Source of the DNA: Physcia stellaris
Taxonomy: Eukaryota > Ascomycota > Lecanoromycetes > Caliciales > Physciaceae
Direction: 5' to 3'
NCBI GenBank assembly: GCA_018902385.1
Contig: JABSSW010000010.1
Location: 62,001-126,000, forward strand
Length of the DNA stretch: 64,000 nucleotides
The notes below the pieces were generated by a model. The model was given only the letters and a program-made list of their open reading frames with translations. It made no database searches and was not told where the DNA came from. The translations under genes were made by a program, and so were the position numbers. Positions within the stretch are counted from its first letter, which is position 1. Every line of letters starts with the position of its first letter. Shown piece after piece: positions 2,151 through 26,000 of this stretch.

Positions 2151-4899
2151 TTTCACGTAATTTAACACAATATTCACATACATTGTTATCGATTTAAATC
2201 AATGAATGATTTTTAACGAATTTTTTTAAATTTGATTTTGAAAAATTTCGTTTAAAATTCGCGTTTTCGTTGAATGTAAATTCGATTTTCGATGAATATT
2301 ATATTTATCGAATATTTGAAATCATTTTCGAAATCAATTAATTTAATTACATAATTTTCACATAAACAATAATTCGATTGAATTGACGATTGATTGTATA
2401 AATAAAATTTAAAATTTTGATATTCAAAAATTTCGTTTAAATATCGAATTCTCGTTGAAAATAAAATCGTTTTTCGATGAATGTTACATTTATTAAAAAT
2501 TGAACATTAATTTTCAATTCGACGTAAAAATTTAATGAAAAAATTGATAAATTAAATCGAATTAAATTAAAATCGATTTGATACGAAATTTTGAAATTTG
2601 ATTTCAATTGAAAAATATTGAAATTGAATTAAATCGAATTAACGATTGATTTTTTACAAATTTTTCAAATTTTTAAATCGCGAAATTTGCAATATTCAAA
2701 TCGTTTTTCGATAAATATTAAACGTATCGAAAATTTAAAAACAATTTTGAATATTAATAAAAAAATAAAATTAACAATTTTAACATTGAATTAAATCGAA
2801 TAAACAATGAATTTTTATATATTAACAAACAAATGCGAAATTTTTTAAAAAAATTCTTTCGAAACGATTTCAGAATTAGAATTGCATTTGATAAAATTGC
2901 GAAATTCGACATTTCGTCATTGTTTTGCGATTTCGCGAATTTCGCATTTTAATAACATTTGCATTCAATAAATAAAATTTACAATCAAAAATTCATTTTG
3001 AAACACGAAATGAATTTTATTCAAATAATCAATAATATCGAAAATCGATCGAATGCGCATTGAATTGTAACGAAAATCGTATTATTGCATTGCAAATATT
3101 GCGAAAAATTGAATCGACACGAATTTGACAACGACGCAATTTTTCAAAATTCAAAATTATTGCGATAATGAATCGATTTTCGTTATTTTTGACGCATTGA
3201 AATGCGTTCGTTTTGTTTTACAATCATGATTAAATAAATGAAAATCATATGTGATTGTTAATTAAAATGCAAAATACGAAACAATTGTACAAATTTAAAA
3301 AAATCAAACGAAATTATTTCGCAAACATCACAGTTGACGATTTGACACAAATTTGATAATAACGAAAAATTCGAAATTTCATAATTATTACGATAATGAA
3401 TCGATTTTTTTTTATTTTTACAACGTTGAAATGCGTTCATTTTGTTTTACAATTTCGATTAAATATGCGAAAATCATATGTGATTGTTGATTGATGTGCA
3501 ACATATACAATAATCGCACGTTGTTGAAACGTTTTAAAATAATTTTTTGACGTATATTTCGATTGAAAACAAAAATTAAATATTGATTGAATTTATCGAC
3601 TTTAAACAACGAAATTTTCGTATTGATCAGAAATTTTCTCGATCGATTATTCGCGTCAAGCGAATATACTGAATATTTTTTTATAGATTGTGTTTTATAA
3701 AATTCGAAATTTATCGATATTTCGTCAAAAATTTCGCATAATGAAAATTTGAATGATTGAATTCGTATAAACAAAATTAAAATTAAAATTTTAATTTTAA
3801 ATTGTATTCGTTAATAAATATAAAATTCGATTTTATTAACGATTATTGTTATATAAATTTTCGACAATTGATATAAACATAAATTGAATTGTAATTGTAA
3901 ATTAACAAATTGATATATTACGATAAATAAAATATTTAATTTTGTGTGTAAATTAATTTATTATAATAATATCGATTGACAAATTACGTGCAAAAATAAA
4001 AACAATTACATTGTAAAAAATTAAAAATTTGTTAAATGATATTTCAACACAATAATCGTAAATTCGAAATTCAATATTTTCAATATACGAAAATCGATCG
4101 TTGAACAAAACAAACGTGAACTCGAAATCGAGCAAAACAGACGTGATTTCTTTTTCGAAAAATTCGAAAGAAAAAACGCAATTTTTCATAATTCTAACAG
4201 TAAAACGAAATGATTTTTCTAGAAAAATCAATTGATGACAGAAGTTTGATTGATGAAATCGCTTTAATCATTTCGCATGTTAATGAAAAATCACTTAACG
4301 TTTTCTCAAAAAAATCAACATTTTTTGAATTGTTTGCAAATTTTCTTTGCATGCAATCAAACACGTCATTACTTTTTGCAATACTTAGAAATCAATTCGT
4401 CATTTTCAGAACGACAATTCTCAACGTCAAGATCAAAAACATCGAATTGATTGTTAACAATGATTCAATCGTTTGATTCAGTCATTAAATTTTCATCACG
4501 AAACTCGCGCGTCTTTTTCGATCGTTTACATGAAATTTTGCAATCTCAATTATCATTTTTCATTTCGTCTATTTGTTTGTACAGAGCATTGATTATTGCG
4601 TATTCGTTTCGATCATTGAAAATCATTTAAGAAATCAACACAAAGTGAAAGAAAACGATTGCAAACAATTTTGATCGAAATTCGCATTCATGACTTTCGC
4701 GATTTTCGTCAAGTTCATTCATTCAATGACATCGAACATGTATTCGAATTGTTAAATCGAGTTCGAATTTCGATGTGATAAATGCATTGAAAACAGTCGA
4801 TTAGTCAATAAAAGTCGACGTACGATTGAAAACATCTGTTTTCGATTCATGACATCGAAAACGCAAAAAACAAGATTTCGCTCAATGAAAACGACGTGT
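2151..4899. other. AT-rich, strongly mutated block without recognisable genes
   Basis: C is followed almost only by A or G, and G is preceded almost only by C or T. The reading frames found here (for example 3418-3774 minus and 3953-4231 minus) contain almost no Gly, Pro or Trp and match no protein family I know. Two similar stretches near 3170-3270 and 3400-3500 (both with gaaaatcatatgtgattgtt) show an old internal duplication. This is probably decayed transposon DNA; I cannot assign a family. Confidence 0.6.
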
Positions 4900-5945
4900 A
4901 ATCGATTTATTTTCTATGCGTTCGTTTATCAGAACTCATAAACGAAATTTTGTATGTAGAGACTAGAGTCTTGACTTTCGAGCAAAGAACTCATAAACGA
5001 GATTTGAAAGAAATTCATAAACAAGACATTCACGACATGAATTTGCTATGTAAAATCAGATATCGATAGCGTTTGACGAGAGAAATTCAACGATGTAAAA
5101 ATCAAAATTGTGTGACAAATGCGCATCGAGATATTCAACTGCGAAGAATTGATTGCATACAATTTGATGAAATCGATTTTCGAAACTAAAATTTTAATTT
5201 TCGCTCAATAGATTCATAAACGAAACAGAAAATTTCATAAACGAACTTTCAAAAACTCATAAACAAAACATTCACAATATCAATTGAATATATAAAACAT
5301 GATATTTGTAACGTCGAACGAGAACGATTCAACGATGCAAAAATCAAAATCGTGTGACAAATGCGCATAAAGTTATTCAACTGCGAAGATTTGATTGTAT
5401 ACAAAGAAATTTTGACATTCAAATTTGATTCGAATTTATGACACAATTCAGCAATCATCATTAAGTCAAAACGCAAATGATTGATATGTGTGATTTGATC
5501 TTTATAACGTTCGACGAGAGAAATTCAACGATGCAACAATCTAGTTGTTGTGACAAAAGCGCATTGAATTATACAATTGCAAAAGTTCGATTGCACACAA
5601 ACGCAAAGAAATGATATTGAATGCAAAATTCGATCGAATCATCGATTAATCATCATTTCAATGACATTTTTTAATATTCATACAATCAAATCTGATATTC
5701 GAAACGTCTAACAAGAAAAATTCAACGATGTCAAAACGAACTTTGTGTGACATTCGTGCAGTTAAATATTCAATTGCGAACATTTGACTACATACAAATT
5801 TATGAATGTTTGACATTCGAGTTTGATCGTTCAATCGAATCGTATTTCGTTTGATCATGAAATTCGTAAACGACGCGATAAATTCATAAATGAAATTTCA
5901 AAGAACTCATAAATCAACGATTCATCGCGTCGATTTTTGAATTTT
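4900..5945. repeat. Degenerate tandem repeats ending in an inverted satellite unit
   Basis: The motif attcaacgatg recurs near 5084, 5327, 5523 and 5719, so the units are about 196-243 bp. Each unit is followed by a gtgacaaatgcgca-like stretch and preceded by cataaacgaaat-like blocks. The last part (about 5830-5945) is a clear reverse-complement copy of the higher-order unit of the 1-2150 satellite, including cataaatcaacgattcatcg. The 2.2-5.8 kb block is therefore framed by oppositely oriented copies of the same repeat. Confidence 0.75.
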
Positions 5946-6079
5946 AAAACGTTTTTGTGTACGTTAATTTATTTATGTATTTTTGAGTTTTTGAAACTTT
6001 TTGTTGAATTTCTACAAAACAAAAATGTCAAAAAAAAAGACGACGAGTGAAATTGAACTCGCAATCTTGATAAAAAATA

Positions 6080-6125
6080 AACACAGCTTGTCTTTTTTCA
6101 CATAGAAGAAAGACAAGCGATGTTT
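6080..6125. repeat. Near-perfect hairpin (16-17 bp arms)
   Basis: The arm aacacagcttgtcttt (6080-6095) pairs with aaagacaagcgatgttt (6109-6125), with about two mismatches and a 13-base loop. It sits just before the 183-bp array. A stretch at about 6045-6070, read on the minus strand, contains gagttcaa, which looks like a tRNA T-loop, and is followed by a run of T. The stems do not fold into a tRNA, so no RNA gene is called. Confidence 0.55.
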
Positions 6126-6179
6126 ATGAATATTTTTATTTTATTAATATATTTATAAATTCAAAAATTCGTAAAAAAT

Positions 6180-7900
6180 CAGTCGTTAATTCGATCGAAT
6201 TCAATCTTATCACTTTTTATTTTCATTTTTTACGTAGATTTCAAAACTGATTTTACATTTTCAATACGTCAAATATTCATCGAGAAACGGTTTCGATATC
6301 GATGTTTTATCGAAACTTAATCGAATTTTCGAGATACAAAATTTCAAAAATTTCTAAAAAATCAGTCGCTAACCCGATCGGGCCCAACCTTATCACTTTT
6401 TATTTTCATTTTTTTCGCAGATTTCAAAACTGGTCTTACATTTTCAATACGTCAAATATTCATCGAGAAACGGCTTCGGTATCGATGTTTTATCGAGACT
6501 TAGTCGAATTTTCGAGATACAAATTTTCAAAAATTTCTAAAAAATCAGTCGCTAACCCGATCGAGTCATAATGTATGTGTATCTTGTTGAAAATTTTGCG
6601 TAGATTTCAGATCTGGTTTCAGATTTTTCATACATGTAATATTGACGTCAAACTAGATTCACTACCAACAAAAGTTCGGGACTTAGAACTTTTCGTTTCA
6701 AAAAAAGTTTCGAAAATTTTTAAAAAATCAGGCGCTAACCCGATCGAGACAACATGTATGCGTATCTTGTTGAAAATTTTGCGTAGATTTCAGATCTGGT
6801 TTCAGATTTTTCATACATGTAATATTGACGTCAAACTAGATTCACTATCAACAAAAGTTCGGGACTTAGAACTTTTCGTTTCAAAAAAAGTTTCGAAAAT
6901 TTTTAAAAAATCAGGCGCTAACCCGATCGAGCCATGATGTATGTGTATCTTGTTGGAAATTTTGCGTAGATTTCAGATCTGGTTTCAGATTTTTCATACA
7001 TGTAATATTGACGTCAAACTAGATTCACTACCAACAAAAGTTCGGGACTTAGAACTTTTCGTTTCAAAAAAAGTTTCGAAAATTTTTAAAAAATCAGGCG
7101 CTAACCCGATCGAGCCATGATGTATGTGTATCTTGTTGAAAATTTTGCGTAGATTTCAGATCTGGTTTCAGATTTTTGATACGAGCATTATTTATTGAGA
7201 ACTCGATTCACTATCAACAAAACTTTTTTTTGTTGATAGTGAATCTAGTTAACCCTAACCTCACTCATCAAAATCAGTTGGTAGTCGATATCGACTACCG
7301 TTAGAGTGAATGTTAGAATTGATTTCAGATTTTTGATACGTGTAATATTCATTGAGAAACGACTTCACTTCCAATCAAATCTCGAAACTTCGAGAAATTT
7401 CGAGTTAACAAAATTTCAAAAATTTGTAACAAATTAGCCGCTAGCCCGATCCGGCCCAACCTCATCACTTTTCAATTACGTTTTTTACGCAGATTTCAGA
7501 ACTGGTTTTAGATTTTTGATACGTGTAATATTCATCGAGAATCGGCTTCACTTTCAATCAAATCTCGAAATTCTCAATTTGAAAAATTCGTAACAAATTA
7601 GCCGCTAGCCCGATTCGGCCCAACCTCACCACTTTTCAACTTCATTTTTTACGTAGATTTCAGAACTGGTTTCAAATTTTTGATAGATGTAATATTCATC
7701 GAGAAACGACTTCACTTTCAACCAAATCTCGAGACTTCGAGAAATTTCGAGTGAACAAAATTTGAAAAATTCGTAACAAATTAGCCGCTAACCCGATCCG
7801 GACAAACTATATGTCTTTTTAACTTCGTTTTTTACGTAGATTTCAGAACTGGTTTCAGAATTTCGATAGATGCAATATTCATTGAGAAACGACTTCACTT
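6180..7900. repeat. 183-bp tandem array, weakly mutated
   Basis: The anchor (a/g)gcgctaacccgatcg or its variants lies at 6182, 6365, 6548, 6731, 6914 and 7097, exactly 183 bp apart. Diverged copies follow at 7437, 7601 and 7784. The middle copies (6575-7190) are nearly identical. Since 183 is a multiple of three, the frame stays open as a 61-residue repeat (6302-6571 and 6575-6937), but this is a consequence of the period and I do not call it a gene. Unlike the DNA on both sides, the array keeps many CC, GG, CT and AG steps. It is interrupted by a hairpin module at 7205-7320. Confidence 0.92.
7205..7320. repeat. Double-hairpin module, copy 1
   Basis: An 18-bp perfect inverted repeat (7205-7222 with 7228-7245) is followed by a second structure. 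Its core is the 20-bp perfect palindrome ggtagtcgatatcgactacc (7280-7299), enclosed by outer arms ctaacctcactc and gagtgaatgttag. The first hairpin begins with the gattcactatcaac sequence of the neighbouring 183-bp unit. A related module is at 7893-8003, and a decayed core is at 12137-12200. Confidence 0.8.
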
Positions 7901-8003
7901 TCAACAGATCCTCTAGTGGTTGAAAGTGGAGCTAAGTAATCCTAACTTCACTCATCAAATCGGTTGGAAGTGATGCATCACTTCCGTTAGAATGAATGTT
8001 AGA
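7893..8003. repeat. Double-hairpin module, copy 2
   Basis: Arms at 7893-7905 and 7919-7931 pair at 12 of 13 positions. The second core is the 20-bp perfect palindrome ggaagtgatgcatcacttcc (7966-7985), enclosed by ctaacttcactc and gaatgaatgttag. Arm sequence and core differ from copy 1, yet both stay self-complementary. It closes the right end of the 183-bp array. Confidence 0.8.
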
Positions 8004-11000
8004 ATTTGAACGATGTCGATTGATCATCGTTGAATTTGTTATGAACGTTTTCAAAAATCAAATCATTTCGACGATTAACGATGTGTATCGATCGAATTTT
8101 TCGTCGACAAAAACAAATTCTCGAAATATGTGTTGACGAAAAACTTGACATTTCGAGCAAAAATAAATCAATAATTTCGAATCATGATATAAATTTTGTA
8201 AAACGTTTGTTCATCGTTCGTTCGAAAAACGTTAATGAATGTCATTTCGACGAAACAAAATTCGACGTCACGAATTAACAAAAATGAATACGTCGCGTTG
8301 CGAACTCGACGAACGACGTTAATTTTGTCGTGAAAAAACGTTTTTTAATATTCGAAACACGATGTTTTTCACAATAACGTAATGTTTTTGACAACGAAAT
8401 CGACATAATGCAAACAAAAAATATATTTTATTTCGAAATTAATTCAAATTTCGTTTATGAATTCGTCGAAAATACGAAAACGTTATTTCAAATAAATGAT
8501 GAAAATCGTTCGCGTTTTTCTAAAATTGATCGCTAAAAATGCAATTTTTGATTTCATTCAAAAATTATCAACATCGATTTTCTGAATTTCGCAAATTCGT
8601 TGATCAAAATGACAATTTGAATTCAAAAAACGACAAGATTGTCGACGAAAATGAGTCGAAAATTGTTCATGAAATAATTAACATTGTACATGTGAATTTT
8701 TTCTTTATTGTGCGTTTGAACTTTGACGATTTCAAAATTGAAAAAATATCGCGTTCGAACATTGATCGACACGCTTGCGCGAATCGCAAATAATACAATT
8801 TGATTTATTCAAATCTTTTGAATTGCATTTTTCAAATGACGAAATTTCGAAAGTTTCATGTGAAAAAAAAGAACGTGAATATTGTAATTTCAATCTCGAT
8901 CATTGAAATCGATTTTTAAACGAAAATTCATGATTTCATGCGATTTGTGTTCGTCGATGAATATTTTTGAATCGTTCATCACACGTTGAAAATAAAATGA
9001 AACATACGACAAATTCAAATCGTTTTTTAAATTTTTTAACGTTTTGAAATGCGCAACGAAATCATCGACATCGAAACGTCGACGCAATTTTCAACGAAAA
9101 TTGATTTGTATTTATTCGAAAAATGTTTCGAAAACGACGATATCGAAACGATACAAAAAAAATTTATCGTTATATAAATTGTTTCAATTTATGTTTTTAT
9201 AATTTCGAAACGCGTCGTCGCGTTGTAACATTGTCGAAAAATATAAAAAACATCAATGTTGAAAAACGATTTTGAACGATTGTTTTGCATTATACGTCAA
9301 TATTGCGCAAAATTCATCATGATCGCGAAAACATTTTTTTTTTTTTTTTGAAATGATATTTTTTTTTGAAATGATATTATTTGAACGATTTCATTAACGA
9401 TCGTTTTGATTTGCACGACGATCGTAAATAAATTCATCACAAACGCAAATAAATCGCGAAATCTCATGCAAAATGTTTGTTGTTGATTGATTGACAATAA
9501 AATTGTCATTTGACAAATGATTGTTATTGTTTTTTTGCACGTCATTGTTGAAATGATCAAAATGTTTTGATTTTGCGTTTTCTTTCGATTCGCTAAAGAA
9601 GTTGAAAAGAAACTGAAAAAAAAAAAAAAAATCGAAATCGATGTAAATGAGCGAAAGTGAAAATTGTTTTGATTGTTTTGAAAATTGTATCGATGAATTT
9701 TGCATCGTCGATGATTCGAATCGCGAGCGAGTTGTAAATGACGATAACGATAAAAAAAATTGATTTTTGACACGAAAAAACGACATCATCAATTGCGTCG
9801 ACGCACTTTGACGACGAAATGACAAAAAAATTCGTTGCGAAATCGCAACGTTGAATAAAAACACGATTTCGACGAAAATAAACGCATCGATTACTGTAAA
9901 CGTTTTTGAAAAATTAATTGTCGACGTGTTAACATTTGAAACATGAAAAAACATCGTTTTCAAAAAAAATGCTGTAATGTTTTTATTTGCAGTGTTAATA
10001 CGATCTCGAAAATCAAAAAAATTTGTTGAAACGAAATTGTTTTCGACATCATGCTGTTTGTTATCAATGATGATGCGAAATGATTTGTTCGTTTTAAATT
10101 TTTTAAAAAACGTCAACGATAAAATTTGAATCGAAAACGAAACGATTTCTGAATTTTCTACATACGTTTGAAAAAAAAAGCGAAATTGTCGCGATGTTGA
10201 ACGTGTTGCAAATTCGAATTTTTGAAATATCGTCGATAATGATGACACAATCGTCGTCAAAAAATGTGATTCATGTCGTCGTTTTACATGAAAAAAAACA
10301 ATTTTTTGAAAATTCGTGACGTAAATAAAAATGTCGATTTTGATGAATTTCAACAAAATGACAAAAAACGTGAATTTTGTGATTTCAAAAAAAATTGTGT
10401 TGATGAAAAAAATTGATATATTTGTATTGAATTCGTTCATTGATTCATTGATATCGATGTTCGTTTTTTTGTTTGTTTTATATTTTTGAATGTCAATTTT
10501 TCTCGTTGTCTTTTTCTTTTTCGTTGTATTGTATTTGATTGAGCGATTCATTGTCACAACAATGCAATAAGTTTCACTGTGAACAAATGACAAATGAACA
10601 AAAAGTTAATCGTGTTGTTCGCAAACAAAATATTTATCGAAAAGAAAAAAAAACAAATATTTGAAAAAATAAAAAGCAAATCAATGACATGATTGATGAA
10701 AACAATATGAACGATTTGATATTTAAAGAAATTCTGATTAACGATTGATAAAAATGTTTGATCGTGTCGATTTTTAAATTGAAATGCATGTTGATTGCAA
10801 TATTGCGCATTGATCGCGATAAATATCATGATGCGCAATGATCGAATCGAATTCATAATAATGCGAATTCGTTGTCGAACTTTGAATTGAAAGCAATGAA
10901 TAAATGTAATCAGCGAAGAATGTTGTCTATAAATTACATTTTTGATTTTTTGTTTCGAAATCATGCTCGACAATGATGAATGCAAATGCGATTATTGATG

Positions 11001-12136
11001 TTGTAAATTGACGATTAAAATTCGCGTTTGATTGTGATAAACGTTTGATGTGCATTGCAAAAATAAACAAATGATTTAAAAATGAAATAAAACATTCAAC
11101 GTTAATGTTCGATAAAATAAAACGAAATGATTGAATCAAAACGAATGATTTTTAAACGTGATTTGATTGATCGCAAATTTTGCTGTTAAATTTTCATATT
11201 TTTGAATGATGTAAAATTTTCGCAATTGAATGATTTTGCACATAGTCGTTAAATCAATTTCGTGTCGACGACGTTGAATTTCGTTTTTCGAATGTTACAT
11301 GAAAATTTCGATAACGATTATTTGAATTTTTCATTTGAAATGATTGTTGAACGATATATTGTCGCGAACAAATTAAAAAATTCGATTATCGTTATTTCGT
11401 ATAAAATCACGATTTTACATCGCATTAATTGTTCACGCATTGATTACACGAATTTTGATTTTTACGACGTTGAATTGCGTTTGTTCAATGCGTCAAACAA
11501 CGAGTTTTCGATGATAATGATTTTCGTTTATATTTTTGAATGATGATCGCTGAATTGTAAATTCGATTAAAAACAAACGCGCAATTTTTGTTGCTAAATA
11601 TTCAAAAATTTGTATGAAATCAAAATTTCGCAATTGAATCATTTTTACGCAATTGTCACATCATTTTCATTTTTGCGAAATTGAATTTTTTTATCGAGCG
11701 TTACACATATTATGTTTTCATTAAATATCATTTGCAAATGTATTTTGAAATGACATCATAATTGTTAAATTGAAAATTCTGAATGAACGCAAACTGAAAA
11801 ATCGAACTGTTATAAATTTATATGAAATTGAATTTTCGCAATTGAATAACAATTCATTCATTTGTCACATTATTTTCATTGTTACAGCATTGAACTTTTT
11901 TTCATCGAACGTTACAAATATCAAATTCTACATGTTTATCATTTGTTATTTCAAATTTTGATGAGAAGTCGTCGAGACGAATGATTTAAACGATCGATTT
12001 GATTGACTTTATTTTGACGTCGATCAGAACGAATGACTAAAATTAACGATTTGATTGATTTCAAACAAACAAATCGAATTGAAAATTTTTAAATTTTTCG
12101 TTTGTTCGTTTCGTAATTCTAATTCGAACTCGTTAT

Positions 12137-12200
12137 TCATTTCTAATTTCATTCATCAAAATTTGCGATATCGATGCATCGATATCGTTAGAATGAATAT
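12137..12200. repeat. Decayed copy of the palindromic module
   Basis: The outer arms tctaatttcattcatc and gttagaatgaatatta flank a 22-bp perfect palindrome at 12166-12187 centred on atgcat. The flanks match the modules at 7250-7320 and 7935-8003 after C/T and G/A changes. The first hairpin of the pair is not visible here. Confidence 0.65.
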
Positions 12201-13539
12201 TAAAATAAATTTTAATAATAAAAAAATTTCGATATCAATATCAAACGAATTTCGTACGTAAAAAATATCAATTATATAATATTAAATATCGTTTAATAAT
12301 TAATTATTGTTTAATGTTTCGATTTGATTATCGATCATTCATCAATATTAAAAAAAAAATTTCGTTATTTCGTTTTTATCGTCGATTGTTTCGAATTTTT
12401 TTAACATTTTTTCGAAATTGAAATTTTTGTTCGTTGTTTTCGAAATTTTTTTTTTTTTTTTTTTGAATTTGATTTTCGAATTAAAAATGTTTATTTCGTC
12501 GTTGTCGTCGCGATTTTTTATTCGCAAAATGATATTATTATTTTTGATTTTTCGCGATTCGATTTGAAATCGTATTTTATTTTAAAAACAAAATACGAAT
12601 ATGTTTCGTCGATTTAACGAATTTATCATAAAACGATAATCGCGTAAACGAACAAACATTTTTTGTTTTTCGAAAAAAAAAAAATCAATATCAATTGATT
12701 TAAAATCAATCAAAAAAAAATCAAAAACACAAAAAATTTTCGAACGCGAAAAAAATTACAAACGAATAATGATTAAAAAAAATAATCATTGTCGAAATAA
12801 TTAAAATACAATATGTTGCGATGTTTCAAATGATCGAAAATGAAAAAAACGTCGTTAAATCACAATTCGTAAATTTTTTTGTTTTCGTTGAAATAACGAA
12901 AAACGATTGATTTTTGTTGTTTTGATTTTTTCAATTTATTTACGAGTTTTGTTTGTTATATATTTGTTATATATCGATGATTATACATTTTTAATTTGAA
13001 CGATTTTTGATGATTTTATTCGAAATGTTTGAATAATATATTGATTAATTTATTACGCGTTATACGTTTATTGTTATATCGCAAAATTATATTTTAAAAT
13101 AAATCAATTATAATTTGATAAAAAGTTGTAAATTATTATTCAATTATAAAAAAATAAATGAATTTCGTACGTATTGAATGCGTATTTTTTATTATATATC
13201 AAATTAAATACATAATTTAATTTTATCGAAATTTAAATTTATTTGTCGATTTAAATTTGAATTATCGTTCAATCGATTATCATGCAAATTTCACAAACGC
13301 GTCAAGAAACGCGTGTTCGAAAAAACATCATTCAAAATATGAAAATCGCACATGAATTCAAAATTCAAATCTTGTCAAATTTTTTCGAAAAAAAACATCG
13401 TTTCAAAAATTTCTGACTTTTATGATCGAGAAATTTTTCGAAACGATGAAAATGATTTTGAAAAACATATTCAAGAAAATGTTTCGATTTATTGACAACG
13501 ATTTTATCGAAAAAGAAAAAACGAAAACAACAAATCAGA

Positions 13540-13870
13540 TCGCTCGAAATGAAACTCGAAAAATCAAAAAAACAAATCAATTCAATCAAAAATATTGTTG
13601 TTTTTATTATTGATAAATGATGAAAAAATATTATATTAAATCGAAATGAAATTTGAAATCAAAACAACAAATCGAACGAAACGATTCGAAATGAAATTCG
13701 AAATCAAAAAAACAATCAATTTAATCAAAAATAATATTGTTTTCATTTTTGACAAATGAAAAAATACAAATTAAAATCGAAATAAAATTTAAAATCAAAA
13801 AAACAAATCAGACGAAACGACTCGAAATAAAATTTGAAATCAAAAAAACAAAATCGAATAAAATTTCGAA
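13540..13870. repeat. Degenerate tandem repeat, about 125-140 bp period
   Basis: Three copies of a block containing cgaaatgaaattcgaaatc, aaaaaaacaaatcaa and aaaaatattgtt follow one another from about 13544, 13684 and 13810. They are diverged mostly by C/T and G/A changes. No coding content is visible. Confidence 0.6.
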
Positions 13871-13984
13871 ATGTTCGCGACGAAAACAATTTCAAATGAA
13901 AACAAAAAATGAATAAAACAAAAAATTTTTCAAATTCGTTAATTCGAATTCGATTAATTGAATACAAAATTATATATATAATAT

Positions 13985-14115
13985 ATTGTTTGCAAACAAT
14001 ATGTATACAATAATATCGTTTGCAAATATCATAATAATAACGTGTACAAACAATATATATACAATAATATCGTTTGCAAACATTATGTATGCGATAATGT
14101 TGTTTGCAAACATAA
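13985..14115. repeat. Short palindromic array (24-30 bp spacing)
   Basis: The palindrome gtttgcaaac or a close variant recurs at 13988, 14018, 14042, 14072 and 14102, separated by tat-acaataat stretches. Spacing is 30, 24, 30 and 30 bp. It lies inside the AT-rich desert. Confidence 0.6.
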
Positions 14116-16166
14116 TGTATACGTTGATGCATGTTAATTATTCATGTTAAATTTCGAAAAACGTCGAATAACGATTTGAAACGACAAAAATGATCAAAGT
14201 TTGATGAATATGAAACAACACAATAATTCAATTTCGAACGAAATAGCACAAAATGAAAACAAAAATGAACACGTTATCGTATATCGACGATATCGAAACA
14301 TTTTGTAAAATTTTATCGAATAAAAAATTCGAATTTTTCAATTAATTATAAATTATTCGTGAAAATTTTTTATCATTTTATATGTTTGATCAATTTGCGA
14401 TTTAATATTTTGAATTTCGATAATGTTTTGATTGATAACATGATCAATACGTAAATTACAAAAATAATTTAGAAAAATTCATTGAATTTTTCATTGATTG
14501 TTGAATTTATTATTTTTATTTGATTCGTTATGTTTTTTTTTTATCGTTTCAAATTCGTTGTTTTTTAACAAAAAAATTAATTTTTTTTCAATGTTTTTGA
14601 CATTTTCAAAAACAAATGATTGAGAATTTTCGATGTCATTGAATTGTTAAACGATCTTTGAATGAAAATAATTATATTTGAAAATCAATTGTTCAAAACG
14701 TTACAAATTTGTTTGACAATTTGACAATATTTTCGTCAATTTATTATTCATTAAAGTTTTTTTCGCATTTTTTTTGATTGAAAATTGAATAAAATTTTTC
14801 GTTTTTTTGAAATTAACAATAATATAAAACGTTGTTCACAACAAATAATTGATTTTTAATATTTTTAAAAACATTTAAAACGTTGCGACGATCAAAATCA
14901 AACGTTTTAATCAATCGATATTCAAATTTAAAAAACATCAAAACATTTTTAATTGACACAAAATTAATTATAACATTGATTATAATTTATTCGAATGATT
15001 TATACGAAAAATTAAACGAATTTCATCGATTCGATCATTTGTTTCAATCGTCATGATTTAAAATCAGAAATTGAAATTGAATGTTTGAAAAATGATTTTG
15101 AATTTTGATGTAATTGCGAACAATATCAAATATCAACGTCGATTTGTTAAATAAAAATTTTAATGCAAAAAAGACGCAACATTCAAAAAAATATTCGAAT
15201 TTTTTGTTTATAAAACGCAAATAATTGCGTATTGTTTTTTGTTTTCGTTTTTTGTTTTTCAAATTTTTTCATTTTTTGTTTATTCGTTTTTGAAATCGTT
15301 TTAATATAAACATCAACTTCGCAACTCGATCGTTTAAATCGAAAAATTCAATCGACGATGTTATTGTTCAACAAAATTTATGTGAATTATTTCTACATTG
15401 ACGAAATTCAATTGACGATTGTTTTGCATAAACGATGTTAAATAATCGAATCAATCGTCAAAATTTCTATACAGAAATTTTCAAAAACATTGAAATGAAT
15501 GAATAAACGAAAATTTTGATTTTTTTCGATGTTATCACGATACAATTTTTGAACAAATTGCGAAACAATTTTTCGAACGCATTTATTGCAATTGTGTCAA
15601 TTCGTTTTCAATGTTATTTATCAGTTTGTCGCACGTGATATTTAAAACATACAATTATTTGAATATTAAAACATGTTTAAAAAAAAATGCGACAATTAAA
15701 TGATAAATCGATTTCTTTGAACTTTATAATTTAATTCGATGTTTTTCGTTAATGCTGCGTATTTTTTCATTGTTATGTACAAAATTTTTGATGTTTTGAA
15801 CATGATCGATTTGCAAACAATGATTTTGCAAAACAAAATGATTTTGCAAAATCGATTTCGTTGAACAAAATGATTCAACAAAACAATTTTCAAAATTTAA
15901 TTATTTTTTTTGTTTTTGCGATTGAATTTTGAAACGAAAAAAAAATTTCAAAAAAAATGAAAACGTCGAAAAAAATCAAAAACAAAAAATGAATAAACGA
16001 AAAAAAAAAAACGAAAAATAAAAAATAAAATAAATGAAACATTGATTTTTTGTTTAATTAAAAAGTCAATTTTTTCAAGTTTTTTCATTTCGTCATTTTT
16101 GTATTAACATTCATGTTTAATTTGAACGATTTACATTTTTAACACGTTTATGTTTCAAAATTTTAT

Positions 16167-16414
16167 TGTATCATGAATATTATGAATCGTGTTTAAATAA
16201 ACGTATTATTGATTAATTAAACGAAAACAATAAATTTGCAAAAACAAATAAATACAAAATGATGAAATTGCAAACAATATGCGAACGTCAAATTTCAAAT
16301 CACGTTAATTTCGTCAAAAAATTAAAACATAATTCGATTTAAACATATTTGTTTAATCATTTATTATATCAATTATTTATTTGTCAAATTTATTTGTCAA
16401 ACATGTTCGTAACA
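16167..16414 (-). repeat. Gypsy LTR (3' side of the element)
   Basis: It matches 22565-22806 over nearly its whole length, sharing for example cgtattattgattaatt and ending catgttcgtaaca. Differences include a 6-base insertion near 16171-16180 and C/T or G/A changes. Confidence 0.88.
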
Positions 16415-17218
16415 TTATTTTTTTTTCGCGAACGTCGTTTCGACGATTCGTTGTTGTTTCGAAATTTGAAAACGTTGTTGAAAATTTTGTTAATCAATTC
16501 GTATAATTGCAAAATTCAAAAATTTCACGATCATTATTTTTTATTTTTTAATATTTTATTGTCATTTCAACGTTCGATAAAATTTGACGACAATTTTTGA
16601 AAATGTTTTTGACACGATTCAATTTTTATGCGATGTAAATTTTAATTGTAAATAATATCGAAATAATAATAAAAATTGAATTGTTAAATAAAAATCGTGA
16701 AATCAAAAACGAATGAATGAATATTGAATTCGTAATTTCAAATGTTAATTGAAAATAATTTCGATTAATGTCAACATGACGATTTTTTTCGAAAACGACG
16801 ACGATTCGTTGAAAAATTTGATTCGTTAACGACGATTTGAAATATTGAAATCAACGTTTTGAACGATTTTGAATTTGTTGTCATGAAATAATTACAATGA
16901 AAATCGTTCATCACATCGCGAACATTATCGAATTTTTCGTTGTTAACATAATATTACGTTCGATTATAAAATCAATTCGATCAATTGACACGATATTGAA
17001 AACGATTATAATAATATCGAAATTTCAAAATATCGTTCATTTTTCATTCGAAATTTTCGTTGATTATGACGAATTCAAAAATTCATTGATTTAATTTTCG
17101 AATGAATTACGAAAATTTTTGCGCAAAAATCAACAATAAAATACATCGTAAATATGCATGATTTCAAACAATTCGAATCGATAAAAATTGTTCATACGTT
17201 GTAATATTTTGTAAAAAT

Positions 17219-20052
17219 TTAATTTTTTGTCATCGAGTTTGTCAAACGATTTAATCGTTTTGATGTTTCGTCGATCGAAAAAAACGAAATTTTTTCGACG
17301 TATTTTACGATTTTTCGATGTTTGTTGATTTGAATTATTATACGTTTTTGAATCATTTTTGCATGATTTCGTACGTAATTGAAAATATTTTGCATCGTGT
17401 CAATAATATTTTCGATTTTAACGATCAGAAATCGTTTTTTCGTTGTAACATACGAGATAAAATTTAATGAAAAATTCATACGAAAATGAAAATTCTTATT
17501 GATAAAAAAAAATTTGTTGTTGCAAATATCGCGTTGTTGTTTTCAAATTCGATCATTGACAATTAGACGTTTTAATCGTTTTGCATGTAATTGCAATATT
17601 GTCGCAATTGTTTTTCGATATTTTGATTGATTTTTTCGATTTGTTTATCGATTTTGAATGAAAAACGATAAAAAATTTATATTTGATGTCGAAAATTCGA
17701 CAAAATGTTTGTCAAACGAACGATATAAATTGAAAATTTCGATCAAACGTTATAAAAAAAAATAATTCATACGTACGAAATACGTAATTGATAAATATTT
17801 TGATCGTAATTTCAATATTGATATTTTCGTCGTCGACGATACAAAACACGTAATGACGTTTTTTGTTAAATTTGTCAATTATCGTGTATATGACATTATA
17901 ATCGTGAACGTCGAATAATTCGATGATAAAATTCATTGATATATCGATTTAACATTGCAAAAATATAATCAAAAATGTAAACAAATCGTTTTTACAATTT
18001 TTGAAAATTTTCGTGCGTTGACATTTATGACAATTACGTACGTATCGACGAATCGTTTTGCGCATATTGAATCAATAATAATCGCGACGTATAAAATTTT
18101 CATGCGATTAAAATTTGAATGTTTCGAAACAAAAAATTCATGAATTTCTTTGAAAAAATCAACGAATAAAAAAACATCGACGAACATTCATAATCGATTT
18201 TTTCGATACAAAACGTCGTTTTTTTCAATGCAATTTCGTAAATCAATTTTATTCATTGAAATGAAATTTTGTTCGATAATTTCACGATAAATCGTGCAAT
18301 CATCGTCAATTTTGTTAACAACAAAAATTTGTTCGTAAATAAATTCGTTAAATTTCATCGCGTGAATTTCGAATCGTTTCGAAATAAACAATATTTGTTT
18401 TCGATATTGATGTCGTTCGTCAATGTCGTTTTTTGATCGTGAATCAAACATACAAATCAAAACATTTGTTTTAACGTTTTGAATTTTCAATTGAAATTGA
18501 ATGACAATATTAAATTTCGAAAAAGTTTTTGTTCAACGAATTTGACGAAAAATTAATTTCTTTGACGTTATAAAAATTTTCAAACTTTTGTGATCGATGA
18601 AAATTTTGATCGATTTTTCAATATTTTCAAATTCAAAACGTCAATGTTTTAAACAACGAATAATGATTAACAATTTTTTGTCGTAAATTTCGTAATTGCA
18701 TTCAATTGAAATCATGTTACGATTATAAAAAATAACAAAATGCAAAATTTTTCGTCGTCGTATTAAAATAATATTTTCGCATTGACGTAATCAAAAAAAT
18801 CAATTTTCAAAATGATTTGTTTGATTCGATCGTAATGTCGTAATATGAAAATTTTCGTTATCGTTTTTTTGAAAAAATTGAAAACTTTTTCGATTTTAGC
18901 AATTCATTCGAAATTGACGAATTTCTTGATCATTCGAATGAAAACTCGAATTTTTTTCGAAAAATCACGAATGAATCGTTTGTAAAAATTGACGAAATTC
19001 ACGAAAATTTGCATTTTTTCAAATTTGTAAAACGTTTTCAATTGACAATGATTTTTATTTTTTCGAATTTATGCGAAAATCATTCATCGATAATATAACG
19101 TTCAAAAATGTTTTTTTTTTTTGAAAAATTCGCATTTTTCAATATTCATTTGTAATTCGAATTTTTTAAGTTTTTTCAACATTTTACGAACGTGAACGAT
19201 GTATTTTTTCTTGAATTTGTTGTAAATGAAAATATCATTTAAATAAATTTGACAGAAATTGTTCAAAAAATTGAATAACAAATCGTTTATATAATATTGT
19301 TAATTCGCGAATTCGTTGATCAATTCGAAAAATAATATTCGATATTTGTATAATTTCATGAAAATAACAAACGTGATGAATTTTTCATTTTTTTCATTCA
19401 TTCGAAATTTGTTGAAAATCGATATAATATTCAATTTGATCAAATATTTGCAATTTTGCATTTTGATTAAAATTTTTTCGATCAAAAAAATGAAATATCG
19501 ATTGCGTTTCGTGATATGATTAAATCGTCGATAATTTACACACAAACGTAATTAATCGTTTGATTTGATTACAAATAAAACGAACGAAACGTATACAATT
19601 TGATTGAATACGATAAAAATTTTTTGAAAATTATTTTTCAAATATTTCTTGAGTTTTTGAAATTTGAATTCGAACAAAAAATATATTTTGTTTCGAAACA
19701 ATGTATTGTTATCGTTTAAAAATTCGATTTTGTGATCGTAAAATCGATGCAATAACAATTCAATTGTTTTTTGAAAATCGAATATTTTTGATAAATGTTT
19801 GAAATATTTGAATATTTTTTTCATTATACGTTCAAAAATCGATTTGATTTGTTCATGTTTCAAAATTTTTTTGATTATGACAACAATTTTCAACGATTCA
19901 AAATTTGTTCGCAATGTTTTGAACGCGAAATCGATTTGATTGATCGTAATGAAAAAACATTGCATTTTTTGTTTTTTGTTTTTGAAATCGACGAATAAAC
20001 AAAAAAAAATTGTTTCAATTATGACGATATTCATCGAATCGTTTGAATTCAA
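17219..20052 (-). pseudogene. Gypsy pol remnant: RT, RNase H linker, integrase
   Basis: Translated fragments keep the spacing of fungal Gypsy polymerases. 19552-20052 holds the region before RT (YDHKIEF...N), and 19300-19545 the RT start (CVNYRRFNHITKRNRYFIF, then KLNIISIFNKFRM). 18188-18490 matches the linker ahead of integrase (NLRNC...VLYRKNRL). 17969-18187 matches the zinc-binding region and 17712-17936 the integrase core (MNFIIELFD...DKFNKKRHYV). Gly, Pro and Trp of the family are replaced, as expected from GGN to GAN, CCN to TTN or TCN, and TGG to TGA changes. The frame is broken between fragments. Not functional. Confidence 0.85.
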
Positions 20053-21372
20053 TTTCGATAATGAAAAAATTTCGAATTGTTGTTTTTTGATTTTTCAACG
20101 TTTGTTGCGTTGTTTTTTCAAATTTTTTTTTAATGAATGTCGTTTTCGTAATTGTTATGATATCAATTTTTGAATTATTTGATTTAATAATTGACAATTC
20201 GTCATCGTTATCGACGTTCGAATGAATTGAACATTCGAAACATTTCGAATCGAATACATTTGATTCATTTTCAATTGTAAAAAACAAAAATTTGATTTTG
20301 AAACGAAACAAAATAATATATCGAAATTTTATTATCGTTATATGTTTCGAATCGTTTTTTTGCGATAATAAAATATTACGACGTCAATTAAATACATTTT
20401 ATCGACGATTTGATTTGAAAATTTTCAAACGTCGAATTTAAACAATTTGATTGAATATATTGTCATAATGATTGCATTTAAACGATTTAAAAATCAATTT
20501 ATCGTAAATCATGTTCAATATAATTTCATGTTTGTTCATTCACGATTTTTTTAAAATTATCGAATGATTATTCAAATCGATAATTAACAAAAAAACGATC
20601 AATTCGAAATGCAATTTTATCGTTAATTTAAAATATATAACATGAATTATTGATAAAATTTGACGATCGTCGAATTCAATCAATAATTTCGATTTTAATA
20701 AAAATACGAATTTCATGTTCAACATGTTGCATACAAATTGCGCGATTTTTTTATCAATGAATGCATAATCAATTGCATCAATATTTATTAAAATTTTTAA
20801 TTTATGTTTATTATCGTTGAATGATAACGTACAATTGATAATTAAAAATCGTTTAATGAAAAATCAAACAAATCATCATCGTGAATAAAATTTTTTTTTA
20901 AATATTTATCAATCGCGTTTTTGATGTAAATTGTTAATTTTTCGAATTCGAATCGTTCGATTCGACGATTAAATTTATATACGATATTTGCATTTTGTGT
21001 CAATAACGTTTTTGATATTTGTGAACGTTCGAACATTTTTTTTAAACGTAATTCAATTCGTCACATGTAAAATATTTGTTCGTGACGATTAATTTGTCAA
21101 TTATCGAATTACGAAATTTGATTTTCACATTGAAATAAAAATGAATCGTTGATTTCACAAAAAAAACGAATGTAACAAATTTCGTGAACGATATCGAAAT
21201 CGAAACGACAAAAATGAATTTAAATTGAAATAATTCAAAACGTTGTTGACGTGTTGTCGTTTTTTTTTTTTTTGAAATTCGTTTGTCGATTGTAAATTTG
21301 TTAAAAAATGATTTTGATTTCGTCAAAAATAATAAATTCACGAAAATACACGTTCATAATTTTTTTCAAATT

Positions 21373-21564
21373 TCAAAATATTTTTTTCATTAATTTTTCA
21401 ATTTTGATAATTTCGTTATAATTTGTTGAATTATTGAAACGAAAAAAAATAAAATAAAACGATTGAAAATTTTGAATGTTTATGATCAATATTCGAAATT
21501 GATTACGCATGTTGCGTTTGAAATCAAAATTATCGTAAATGTTTGACAAAAATTTCAACATCAT
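21373..21564 (-). pseudogene. Gypsy gag fragment
   Basis: The 63-residue fragment (LSNIYDNFDFKRNMRNQFR, then a Phe-rich stretch and NYNEIIKIEKLM) has the pattern of the Gypsy gag core, where a short helix with an (I/Y)Y(D/E)DP-like start is followed by F...F..L..SGYNE. It is upstream of pol in the minus-strand order, as expected. Pro and Gly are missing. Confidence 0.65.
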
Positions 21565-22564
21565 AAATCAATTTTTGAAATGATTGAAATCGATGTCACG
21601 TATCGATTGAATGTAATCGTCAATTTCGTCGACAATTCAATCAATAACAAAAATAACGACGAACAAATTCGTATTGTAATGATCGTTGTTGATCGTCATT
21701 TTATTATGCATTTTCGTTTTTTACACACGTCAAATGAAATTCATTTCATCGATAAACGTGAATAAATCAAAATGTTTGACAAAACGACGTTTTTTTGAAA
21801 CGTTAAAAACAAACGTATCGTCGTCATCGTTGTTTTTACGTTTTTTTTCGTTGATCGATAAAATTTGATATTTCAATTTCAACGCGTCGTATTTGTTTTG
21901 AAAAATGTTATAAATTGTATCGTTTTGAATTTTCAATGAACGTTTTTTCGTTAATTCGAAATTAATTTTTGCGAATTTGTTGATATTGTTTTGAAATTCA
22001 TTCGCAAATTTCTGATATTGATTAAAAATTTTCAAATAAATGTTTCGATTCGAACGCAAAACATCGAATTTTTGCAAAAAATTGACGACATGATTTTCGA
22101 TTCATTATTTCAATTGATTGACGTTGATGACGTTCAAAAAATGAATGATATCGTCATTTTTATCGATACATTTATACGCGAAAAAACGAATTTGCGACGT
22201 TTGAATTGAATAACAATTTTTTTTTCGTTGATGTTGTCGATTATTTGTTTCAAATGACGATCGATTTCGACACGAAAAATTTCAAATGACGAAATTTCAA
22301 ATGAAAAAAAATTATGATAATTTCGAATCATAACGAAAAATAAAAAATTGACGATTGTAAATAAAAAAAATAAATTGTTTGTTGTTCGTTTTATCGTTTT
22401 TTATCGTCGAAAATTTCGTCGTTGTTTCGTCAAAAAAATTTTCAAATCGTTTGTTTGATCAACAAAATTTTTCGTCGTTTGTTTCGTCAAAAAAACTTGA
22501 TCGATTTGAAATTTTATTTTTGAACGTTCGCGTATTTCGACGAACGATAAAAATGAAAATTTAT

Positions 22565-22806
22565 TGTAATATCATGAATCGTGTTTGAATAAACGTATTA
22601 TTGATTAATTAAACGAAAACAATAAATTTGCAAAAACAAATAAATACAAAATGATAAAATTGCAAACAATGTGCGAACGTCAAATTTCAAATCACGTTAA
22701 TTTCGTCAAAAAATTAAAACATAATTCGATTTAAATATATTTGTTTAATCATTTATCATATCAATTATTTATCTGTCAGATTTATCTGTTAGACATGTTC
22801 GTAACA
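22565..22806 (-). repeat. Gypsy LTR (5' side of the element)
   Basis: Direct repeat of 16167-16414, with ends tgtaatatc and gttcgtaaca. It lies about 270 bp from the first recognisable codons of the VIT/vWA pseudogene, so that gene is the nearest neighbour of this element. Confidence 0.88.
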
Positions 22807-23079
22807 ATGAAAAACATTGACGAAAATATCATTCATTTATTGTCATTTTTGTTTGATGTAAATCAATTCGTTTTTTCGCATCTTTGTGTAATTAGTTTTA
22901 TTACACACTAAATTACTATTGACATAATAAATGAACGTTCAAAATCAAATGTTTTTTATTATATGATTGATTGTTTCAATCATTTTGAAAAACATTCTTT
23001 TAAAAAAACAAAAATGCAACATAAATTTCGTAATGAAAATTTACAAATATTTGCAATAAAAAAATCGACTTTAAAAAGA
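22807..23079. other. AT-rich strip between the Gypsy LTR and the gene island
   Basis: No transposon sequence is recognised here. The strip shares the mutated composition of the element and grades into the island. The first GG step appears only near 23271. It probably contains the ruined promoter and start of the downstream gene. Confidence 0.5.
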
Positions 23080-26000
23080 AAATTTTGAAAATTAAAACGA
23101 CAAAATGTATCATTGTTAAATGTTACGACAAATATCAATGTCGCTGATATTAATTCGCGTTCGATTTTAACTTAAATGTTTTTCAACTGTTCGAATAAAG
23201 CAATCAAGAACGTCATATACGTGTTTTCATTATACGATGAGTCAACAATCGTGTCGTTCAATTGTTGAATTGGAAAGAGAGTTTCACTAAAAGAAATTGT
23301 CAAATCAAACGATGAAGCATAGAAGTCATACATTATCGTCGCTAAGGAGAAAAAGTTCGCAGCAGTTCTATCTGAAAAGACATCAGAGATTTTCGAAACT
23401 CAAATTGGCACAATACTCGCAAATACATGTGTGAAGCTTGAAATTGTCTATCTGAATGAATTAAGATCAGATCTTAGTGGGGATGAAATACTTGTGACGC
23501 TTTCTACTTCAATCGCATCTCGGTACGGCCCAAACACTCTTCGGAATCACATACAGAATCAGAGTGCTCCAGCTCAGCTAGAAGACAAAGGATTAAAAGT
23601 GCGGGTAGAAGTATCGGTCCCGGATTCCATCATAGACATCGAAAGTCGGACACATCCCATTGCATTCAACATTGAGTCAGTGAAAGATCCCATTCCGACG
23701 AAGAACATCTTCGCATTATCAAACGAGGCCTTCAACAAGCTACCCATTGACAGAACAAAGGACCACGCTACCATGTCTTATCCTACGGCAGTTCTCCGGA
23801 AAGACTTCGTGTTGCTTATTGCTTGGCTGTGCCAGTATGCTCAAAGCAAGAGCTCTTATGGAGAAATTGAAGGAATCTCGGAATACATCCGCGCTACAAA
23901 TTTCGTTCACTCCTTTAGACCTATTCACAGAGACGCTTCCAGAGATTGCCCTGAATACCGAGCTCATATTTGTGGTAGATCGCTCTGGGTCTATGAGGGC
24001 TGGGAAGCTTGCACTTTTGAAGCAGGTCTTGTCATTTTCTATTCAATTTTTGCAACAAATGGCAGATTGTATGTTCAATATATGTTCTTTTGGATCAACA
24101 TCTGAAATGCTTTGGCGTCGATCCAGCCCTTGCTCCAAGTGTGGAATCGATGAAGCCATGAAGTTTGTCGGTACATGTGACGCGAACATGGGCGGCACAG
24201 AATTGGTGTCCGCCCTTCAGCGTGCTGTCCGGCATCGAACGATGAAATCGAGTACTCAAGTTATTGTCATGACTGACGGGGAGTTGTGGGACTACGATGC
24301 AGTGATGAATTATGTCAGTTGCACGAGAGAAGAGCTTCATGATCGCATCAGGTTCTTTTCTTTGGGTATCGGAGATGAGGTATCACATCAGATGATTGAA
24401 GGCATTGGCAGGCGTGGAGGAGGCTTGTCGAATGTCATTCCAGTCTACCCCCATGGCGACTGGGAGTCTGGAGTAAGACGCATGCTCAAAGGAGCCTTCG
24501 CGCCGGATAATTGGAAATGCAGCGCCAAGTTGACTTCTCGTCTTCACGAGGAACAGAAGAATATTCCTTTTTTTGACTCTGAACAGGTTCAAGCTCCCTT
24601 CGAAATTCCTTCGCTCCATGTCCTCAGCCCGTTCACACTATACTTTCTCTTTGAGTCTGGTCAGCCGCCGTTTGATGAGGTCTGGATTGAAGGCAGGTCA
24701 TCCAATGGTCAATTAGTGATAGCAACAATTCCTATACGAGATGTGTACGTCAGATCTCCAACAATTCATCCTTTGGCGGCAAGAGCTATCGTCAAGGATT
24801 TGGAGGCGGCACTTGATAAGACCCCGCATACCGAAACACAAACAGACATCACTGAACAATTTCGAACTGAGGCGATTCATATTGGCAAGCGCTGGAATAT
24901 TGCCGGGAAATGGACGAGTTTCATATGTGTTGATACTAGCACAGAGGAAGAACGTGCTGCCCGTATTTACGAACCAGACCGGATGGAGACCATAGAACTC
25001 ATGGAATCTACCAACATGAGCGTCTTTGAAGCCTTAGATGGCTACCCTCACGCTTTCACCGACCGGGTCTCGCTGTTGCCACCCTGCAATGCCGAAGATT
25101 ATAACAATGAAGTACAGGTGGGCTTAATGTTCACCGGAGAAAAATATGGGATCGGAATCTTTTGGGTCATATACTTTTGACAGCTACAAAGACGAAAGCT
25201 CTGATAATAGATTCAAGGGATTCAGCCAGGGGCTAAGCAGGCCCAGCAGTGTGCAATAAAACCCAAGCGGTGAAGACCACAAAATTACTCAAAGCAGTCG
25301 CACGAATGATCCCGGTGGTAGGTTTAGGGGTTCAAAGCAGCTCGATTCCAGAGATATTCAAACGCCTGATGACGACCATTTTCAGTCACTTACAAGCAAT
25401 AAGGACGGCCAAACTACATTGAATGCCCAAGACAAGCCTGAAGCCATTCTGCTGTCCACAACACATATTTCAAGGAAGACAGAGGAGCTCTGGCAAGCAG
25501 CGATACCTAGCAGAGCTTCAAACATCTGGGGTCATCCATATTCATCCCCGGACCTCAAGTACAAACTTCGTTCCTCTACATCCTGGGGTTTTCGAGATGG
25601 CTGGGATGATTCATTTAGAGGTCACGTGAAGAAATGTGGAGGTCGTCACGGAAATCCTGTTGGAGCGAGCAAAGACATGGCAAAAAGCCCTATTTTGTTA
25701 AATCTATCAGGGGTCAGTTTATACCCGCTGGACCAAATGCGAATCGCGTCAGGATCTTCCTCATGGTCTCAGCTGGATACGTATTTCACAAAAAAAGTTT
25801 TGATATTGGAGCTAATTCGATCTTCCTTCCATTCAACTTTTCAATATTCTGATCAACAACATTTAATTCGTCTTATGACGAACTTTTGAAACAACGTTTT
25901 CAATAGACGTCTGTCGCAATTCACTTCTGCGAAGAGCGAATTCCAAATAAGACAAACACTTGTGTCACTAAGAGATGCTGAATGCATTTCTCGTAGTCTA

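Follow-up and report, generated by a model that had tools for sequence, protein, structure and literature searches.

The DNA studied here is a stretch of 64,000 nucleotides from Physcia stellaris (contig JABSSW010000010.1, positions 62,001 to 126,000 of the forward strand), hereafter called the window. P. stellaris, an ascomycete that forms lichens, belongs to the Physciaceae and bears abundant apothecia (PMC7513301; statements on the literature refer to the available portions of the cited articles). In the window, AT-rich blocks with no or few CC/GG dinucleotides alternate with gene islands of about 43-51% GC and ordinary dinucleotide composition. The low-CC/GG blocks occupy positions 1-6,288, 7,986-23,271, about 32,934-43,999 and about 48,751-52,726, and ordinary dinucleotides are found at 23.3-32.9 kb, 44.0-48.7 kb and 53-64 kb. 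The subject of this work is the C-to-T mutation of the AT-rich blocks, in which the target is set by the 3' neighbour of the cytosine.

The main tract, whose limits were set by the nearest flanking CC or GG, is 15,286 bases long and its CC+GG count is 0, against 456 expected and a minimum of 405 over 200 shuffles. CT and AG together were counted 147 times against 1,409 expected, whereas CA and CG are retained and TA is not enriched. Between 8,006 and 22,806 the counts are CC 0, GG 0, CT 70, AG 62, CA 762 and CG 875 (observed/expected: CC 0, CT 0.11, CA 1.19, CG 3.98, TA 0.44, TC 1.41). The proportion C/(C+T) according to the 3' base, calculated over 12,001-22,806, was 0.444 before A, 0/1,368 before C, 0.505 before G and 0.015 before T; in the gene island (24,000-32,800) the corresponding values were 0.613, 0.405, 0.398 and 0.481. 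Ultraviolet-type damage at any dipyrimidine was rejected because TC is kept.

An initial annotation of this DNA, made from the sequence, had described a RIP-like decay (RIP, repeat-induced point mutation) that removes CpC and CpT and spares CpA and CpG. Its sample at 19,801-20,040 was recounted exactly: 27 C, of which 14 are CpA and 13 CpG (12 CG inside the sample, the C at 20,040 being followed by G at 20,041), no CC and no CT, and G preceded by T or C alone (AG 0, GG 0). Over the whole tract the effect is confirmed and even stronger than described, but the description needs some correction. CpC is indeed gone, but CpT is strongly depleted and not absent beyond the small sample; CpA and CpG are both mostly kept, but CpA is slowly eroded rather than wholly spared. 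The signal lies at 8,006-22,806 as described without being limited to these coordinates, since other AT-rich blocks are alike.

Direction and context of the mutations in aligned copies

The first 2 kb of the long terminal repeat (LTR)-retrotransposon-like element of the main tract have at least 40 matching places in the genome. A 2-kb piece of this element was compared between the window copy and 19 fetched copies (L049, a composite, was left out). CC is 0 in 19 of the 20 copies (L033 has one) and CT ranges from 2 to 59 among the 19 fetched ones. At sites where C is left in at least one copy, the share already converted to T was 0.871 for CpT (140 sites), 0.158 for CpA (245 sites) and 0.082 for CpG (252 sites), so that the changes do not fall mostly at CpA, the outcome that the initial annotation had named as contrary to its proposal. 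Before a mixed pyrimidine the share was 0.939 (14 sites), and at the single CpC site T was found in 19/20; CpC is undercounted in this set because sites converted in all copies are invisible. The two-state columns comprise 224 C/T and 264 A/G, and therefore both strands are hit. The CpT share was 0.85-0.89 by class of 5' base (-1), gaps aside, and no 5' effect was seen; grouped by the 5' base or by the second 3' base it was 0.84-0.89 (gap-free classes), with little effect. The CpA share was 0.22 with T in the second place 3' and 0.11 with A there.

The window sequence at 33,660-35,659 and copy L026, which are 89% identical, were compared both ways. T was found in the other copy at 3/3 and 2/2 CpC, 43/102 and 87/147 CpT, 8/279 and 8/276 CpA, and 4/219 and 6/222 CpG, giving totals of 5/5, 130/249, 16/555 and 10/441. 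Three more distant relatives (L027, L028 and L029; 78-80% identity in the longest piece) were scored for sites with C in the relative that read T in the window. For L027 the values were CpC 25/30, CpT 92/181, CpA 26/271 and CpG 18/223; for L028, 0/0, 24/50, 13/172 and 14/158; for L029, 2/3, 42/88, 21/232 and 17/181. The CpA and CpG values in these distant comparisons include ordinary divergence, and the aligned pieces of L027 and L029 overlap, with some positions counted twice. CpG is not a target, as seen from the 10/441 of the reciprocal pair and the 0.082 per site of the 20 copies. The process is thus a C-to-T change on both strands, with a target set by the 3' neighbour in the order CpC > CpT >> CpA > CpG.

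The same contexts were examined in the 183-bp satellite. Among 27 units of at least 100 bases, 11 units of one subtype were used, and each of five converted units (CC/GG at most 1) was compared with the nearest of six unconverted units (CC/GG at least 7), the same unit being nearest in 5/5. T was found at 34/40 CpC, 13/40 CpT (4 more were G), 8/55 CpA and 1/50 CpG. The CpC figure is partly circular because the units were split by their CC content, and the CpA and CpG figures are free of that. One 27-base pattern gave 27 satellite matches with at most 3 mismatches. The satellite also occurs in contigs C5, C10, C18, C53, C62, C105 and C142, mostly as unconverted units together with some converted ones.

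Order of loss, edges and extent in the genome

The order of loss was followed in 653 windows of 500 bp drawn from the 64-kb window, from twenty 10-kb stretches chosen at round coordinates elsewhere in the genome and from the loci fetched as repeats; seven loci were excluded as gene loci or overlaps. Mean CT+AG was 66.8 where CC+GG was at least 45, and 9.8 (range 0-47) in the 181 windows with a CC+GG of 0. None of the 653 combined a CT+AG of 15 or less with a CC+GG of 8 or more: CpC is essentially spent before CpT. In a CT-rich and a CT-poor copy, picked by their CT content, T was present in the poorer one at 60/251 CpA and in the reverse direction at 20/213, the CpG values being 15/269 and 8/259. 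Three further pairs agree at CpA (32-56 of 247-253 against 10-17 of 214-230), and CpA erodes slowly. The insert at 32,904-44,012 (Table 1), which contains a second direct-repeat pair (33,660-33,950 and 39,323-39,613) and has lost CT only in part, is at a younger stage.

The edges of the mutated DNA are sharp. At this insert, CC/GG counts per 100 bp are 10, 3, 0, 0 inward at one end and 0, 1, 12, 10 outward at the other, and CC/GG is normal in both flanks. In the two transposons examined, mutation ceases within some tens of bases of the element ends, the outermost tens of bases keep their CC/GG and the adjoining genes are untouched. The terminal inverted repeats of the DNA-transposon-like element (48,679-48,772 and 52,741-52,834) retain most CC/GG, and the interior (48,751-52,726) has five. 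Most of the array at 6.2-8.0 kb has escaped mutation, with 76 CC/GG, whereas no CC/GG is present in the tandem array at 20-2,143. The confinement to repeats is documented by edges at element ends and by normal GC-rich windows, copy number having been checked for two elements. The process thus targets repeated DNA and acts less strongly where a repeat ends.

The genome analysed comprises 43.97 Mb in 147 contigs. The published description (46.57 Mb, 184 scaffolds, 43.3% GC; Nanopore and Illumina sequencing from ascospore cultures) contains, in its available portion, nothing on repeats or RIP in P. stellaris (PMC7513301). When dinucleotides with ten A/T on each side were counted on both strands of the 44 Mb, CC was found 12 times, CT 301, CA 4,497 and CG 2,104; the reversed control patterns TC, AC and GC gave 3,309, 1,468 and 436. 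The CpC-first pattern is genome-wide in AT-rich DNA. Among the 500-bp windows of the twenty stretches, 25/400 were affected, all of them within 2 of the 20 stretches, and intermediate windows were not encountered. Windows with at least 45% GC (64-kb window and twenty stretches) had an observed/expected of 0.93-0.98 for CC and 1.08 for CT; the equal depletion of CpC and CpT in gene islands, which the initial annotation had considered damaging to its proposal, was therefore not observed. With the usual thresholds of the RIP index (TA/AT > 0.89 and (CA+TG)/(AC+GT) < 1.03; PMC3897900), 0 of the 202 affected windows passed and 12 of 434 normal ones did.

The features of the window are listed in Table 1. 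No match was obtained when the window was scanned with Rfam at gathering cut-offs and for tRNAs. Five relic frames submitted to Pfam matched nothing at E up to 0.001, and a laxer E gave the one weak RVT_2 match of the table. In the gene island, the von Willebrand A frame (23,684-25,177) and the AMP-binding-enzyme frame (28,344-29,945) are unmutated though near mutated blocks.

Table 1. Features of the 64,000-nucleotide window of P. stellaris
Feature	Position	Strand	Remarks
AT-rich tract	1-6,288		no CC/GG; holds converted tandem array 20-2,143
Tandem array, about 183-bp units	6,160-7,985		mostly unconverted; 76 CC/GG at 6,289-7,984; unit at about 6,160-6,277 converted
Main tract	7,986-23,271		no CC/GG; CT/AG reduced about tenfold; CA and CG retained
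Relic open frame, 403 codons	9,397-10,605	-	inside mutated DNA; proline, glycine and tryptophan all absent
LTR-retrotransposon-like element	16,176-22,806		direct terminal repeats 16,176-16,414 and 22,568-22,806, 95% alike
Gene island, internal control	23,323-32,900		ordinary dinucleotides; von Willebrand A (VWA)-domain and AMP-binding-enzyme frames
Insert	32,904-44,012		144-nt direct terminal repeats, 86% alike; CC/GG nearly gone at 32,934-43,999
RVT_2 (copia-type reverse transcriptase) relic match	42,286-42,657	+	weak: E 0.0015, below curated cut-off
DNA-transposon-like element	48,679-52,834		94-nt terminal inverted repeats, 94% complementary

Candidate genes and consequences for proteins

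A search of the genome with PF00145 gave four matches in three places. Contig C3 carries a DIM-2-like gene with SPCQ and ENV motifs in an uninterrupted frame, and two RID-type genes were found, one on contig C5 (L003/L004; motifs SPPCQ and EQT) and one on contig C6 (L001; motifs SPPCQ and EET). The search for RID and DIM-2 homologues suggested by the initial annotation has thus yielded one DIM-2-like and two RID-type genes. In the C6 gene two TGA triplets lie inside short GT...AG stretches, which are read as putative introns. By a simple pattern, EET was also found in 23 of 29 relatives listed as nearest to this gene. In a FastTree phylogeny of 60 sequences (support values not shown), rooted on DIM-2 and including no Neurospora RID, the C5 and C6 genes fall in separate groups: that of C5 holds entries of Physcia, Heterodermia, Dirinaria, Pseudocyphellaria and Usnea, and that of C6 includes a Heterodermia entry and is adjoined by Aspergillus and Talaromyces entries. 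One genome therefore carries two RID-type genes of different groups, with apparently intact motifs in both. Eight matches to the cytidine-deaminase family PF00383 were also obtained in the genome; the APOBEC_N search gave no match, which says little since its control matched in no genome either.

The effect of the two contexts on coding sequence was simulated in four putative frames of gene islands, taken as open frames and not as full genes. Changing all CpA created 30, 26, 16 and 29 stops; changing all CpY (CpC and CpT) in the same four created 8, 8, 5 and 2, and removed every proline, glycine and tryptophan. By the codon table, the sole route to a stop under CpY change is TGG to TGA. Five real relic frames inside the mutated DNA (157-403 codons) likewise lack all three residues. 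In the 15.3-kb tract, 12 frames of at least 100 codons were present against a mean of 0.5 over 20 shuffles, and the stop triplets in the six frames were 871 TAA, 943 TGA and 24 TAG. As AG is lost, splice acceptors are lost too. Other public assemblies contain six related relic proteins, which are 56-83% identical and have 9-24 glutamines each; five of the six lack proline, glycine and tryptophan, and the sixth has 2 prolines and 1 glycine. Their sources may be the same or related species. Since these relatives are (almost) devoid of the three residues, CpY-type mutation may not be confined to the P. stellaris genome. No relatives of the relic protein were found when viral contigs were scanned.

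A RIP-like process with an inverted base preference

The process is RIP-like in behaviour and is not classic RIP in context. Classic RIP, as found in Neurospora crassa and many Pezizomycotina, shares with it the C-to-T change on both strands, the attack on repeats, the sparing of single-copy genes and the presence of RID-type and DIM-2-like genes. Of the four contexts, Neurospora uses CpC least. Classic RIP prefers CpA (PMC2621366, PMC12543289), whereas P. stellaris spends CpC and CpT and nearly keeps CpA. In a 2025 survey of 1,239 fungi, RIP-like defences share the CpA preference (PMC12543289); the RIPCAL study, which lists indices of the (CpN+NpG)/(TpN+NpA) type for all four contexts and so defines a CpC index, reports CpA dominance, with CpT in Tad1 (PMC2621366), and a third finds CpA used most and CpT more in N. 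crassa (PMC5555474). In the CpT-biased RIP of Botrytis, Sclerotinia and Magnaporthe (PMC4352252) and of some Colletotrichum truncatum families (PMC6180176), CpT is a main target and RID-type genes are present, as here; in those fungi, however, CpT is joined with CpA (TpA/ApT 0.93-1.68 in C. truncatum; PMC6180176), whereas in P. stellaris CpC goes first and TpA/ApT is low. The signatures treated in the available text of PMC4352252 are CpA, CpT and CpG, and the word CpC is absent from it. The CpG or TpCpG mutation of the basidiomycetes Microbotryum and Rhizoctonia (PMC4352252, PMC4014442) is also a repeat-linked C-to-T change in a non-CpA context, but CpG is the most stable context in P. stellaris (10/441). 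In Table 2 of the Rhizoctonia solani AG8 study, raw CpC single nucleotide polymorphisms are the commonest CpN class, though the authors stress CpG, and no exhaustion of CC is listed (PMC4014442).

Among lichens, Cladonia rangiformis has a similar two-compartment genome, mutated repeats with sharp edges and RID and DIM-2 homologues; strong RIP at about 16% GC is reported, and the available text holds no neighbour analysis, the words CpA, CpC and dinucleotide being absent from it (PMC12542154). Endocarpon pusillum differs in having repeats with the classic sign (TA/AT 1.47, (CA+TG)/(AC+GT) 0.70; PMC3897900). By the standard index, RIP is also scored in Cladonia metacorallifera and Gyalolechia flavorubescens (PMC7882544). 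In Teloschistales, a significant share of the genome consists of AT-rich regions (PMC9907504). The available portions of PMC7296669, PMC7765829 and PMC5602860 offer background or nothing on context. A CpC-dominant RIP was not found in the literature searched, that is, in the available text of the open-licence PubMed Central articles cited here, and may be reported elsewhere; the mismatch with known RIP spectra pointed out in the initial annotation stands within that scope.

We consider, with a probability of about 0.7, that the mutations are due to a RIP-like genome defence of P. stellaris with a base preference inverted relative to classic RIP. Repeats would be recognised by homology in the sexual cycle and attacked by a RID-type cytosine methyltransferase preferring a 3' pyrimidine, C or 5-methylcytosine would then be deaminated to T, and repeated rounds would spend CpC, then CpT, and slowly erode CpA. 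Abundant apothecia and cultures from ascospores (PMC7513301) permit such timing in the sexual cycle and do not show it. The acting enzyme is probably RID-type, with the EQT (C5) and EET (C6) genes as candidates. In Neurospora the DIM-2 route acts on DNA beside repeats, as is generally held and in part documented (PMC12543289), and the lack of spread past repeat edges in P. stellaris argues for a RID-type over a DIM-2 route. The data are compatible with the agent suggested earlier, a methyltransferase or deaminase that prefers a 3' pyrimidine, and candidate genes for it are present.

Several points weigh against an inverted RIP. The gain of TpA at CpA, the best-known mark of RIP, is absent (median TA/AT 0.429 in the 202 affected windows). 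DIM-2 is also present and could contribute. Most units of the 183-bp array are unmutated, though repeated and within AT-rich DNA, and the terminal inverted repeats of the 48,679-52,834 element are spared; limits of length or of edge position may account for both. Moreover, the DNA is that of one species, in which no enzyme link, life-cycle stage or live event was observed.

A maintained methylation, in which DIM-2 or another enzyme methylates mainly CpY in vegetative cells and 5-methylcytosine deaminates spontaneously with no RIP step, would agree with the presence of a DIM-2-like gene, with the CpT preference of Neurospora DIM-2 given in a 2026 review (PMC13297926) and with the greater CT loss in older copies. 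We regard it as unlikely. In L026, L028 and L029, each taken as about 5 kb with its flanks, CC is 0-14 while CT is 118-257 (L027 has more CC), and this exhaustion of CpC in CT-rich copies suggests strong bouts rather than slow decay; the edges are sharp, whereas the DIM-2 route would act beside repeats; and no context is more stable than CpG, which is a usual target of methylation. Editing of repeats or retrotransposon intermediates by an APOBEC-like DNA cytidine deaminase appears distinctly improbable. Some animal deaminases are known to use a CC context, and the genome has its eight PF00383 matches, but the strands are hit equally, repeats without LTR (the satellite and the terminal-inverted-repeat element) are hit too, and the rule sits in the 3' base with no 5' effect, whereas APOBEC enzymes read 5' bases. 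This editing is disfavoured by the strand symmetry and the absence of a 5' rule.

It is very improbable that C is attacked in all contexts and that mismatch or base-excision repair restores it before purines, leaving the CpY changes. G:T repair enzymes with a CpG preference exist in other organisms and CpG is the best-kept context here, but such repair must also account for the protection of CpA and for the CpC-before-CpT order. An artefact of assembly in AT-rich DNA, or elements already CC-poor before their arrival, can hardly be credited. The analysis was made on the assembly alone (Nanopore and Illumina in the published work; PMC7513301), but the copies form a graded series (CT 2-59 across the 19 fetched 2-kb copies), on which ground an ancestral composition is rejected; of 30 CC positions compared in L027, 25 are TC in the window, satellite units occur in both states, and unrelated repeat types share the pattern while flanking genes are normal. 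Virtually nothing is left for classic CpA-type RIP as the main process, although it would likewise leave C-to-T changes confined to repeats, and this ascomycete has RID-type and DIM-2-like genes. Classic RIP is refuted in that role by the dinucleotides (TA observed/expected 0.44), by the alignments, in which hardly any CpA is changed (16/555 for the reciprocal pair), and by the common index, which flags none of the affected windows; a minor CpA component is possible.

If the process is indeed an inverted RIP, a RID-type lineage may have switched its target from CpA to CpY, CpC first, which would amount to a second type of RIP, with a genetic outcome of its own and unseen by standard surveys; we put this forward tentatively, at somewhat less than even odds. 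Common RIP indices assume a CpA target and, as the index flags 0 of the 202 affected windows, surveys based on it could overlook an entire class of RIP. CpY-type RIP may then be widespread in lichen fungi and unrecorded. The effect on genes would also be altered: few stops arise and frames would stay largely open, with CpG and CpA remaining, while proline, glycine and tryptophan codons and AG acceptors are lost. The choice of cytosine by RID-type enzymes is an open matter because RID activity is undetected in vitro according to the available text of a review (PMC13297926), and a natural switch of target would make this choice testable.

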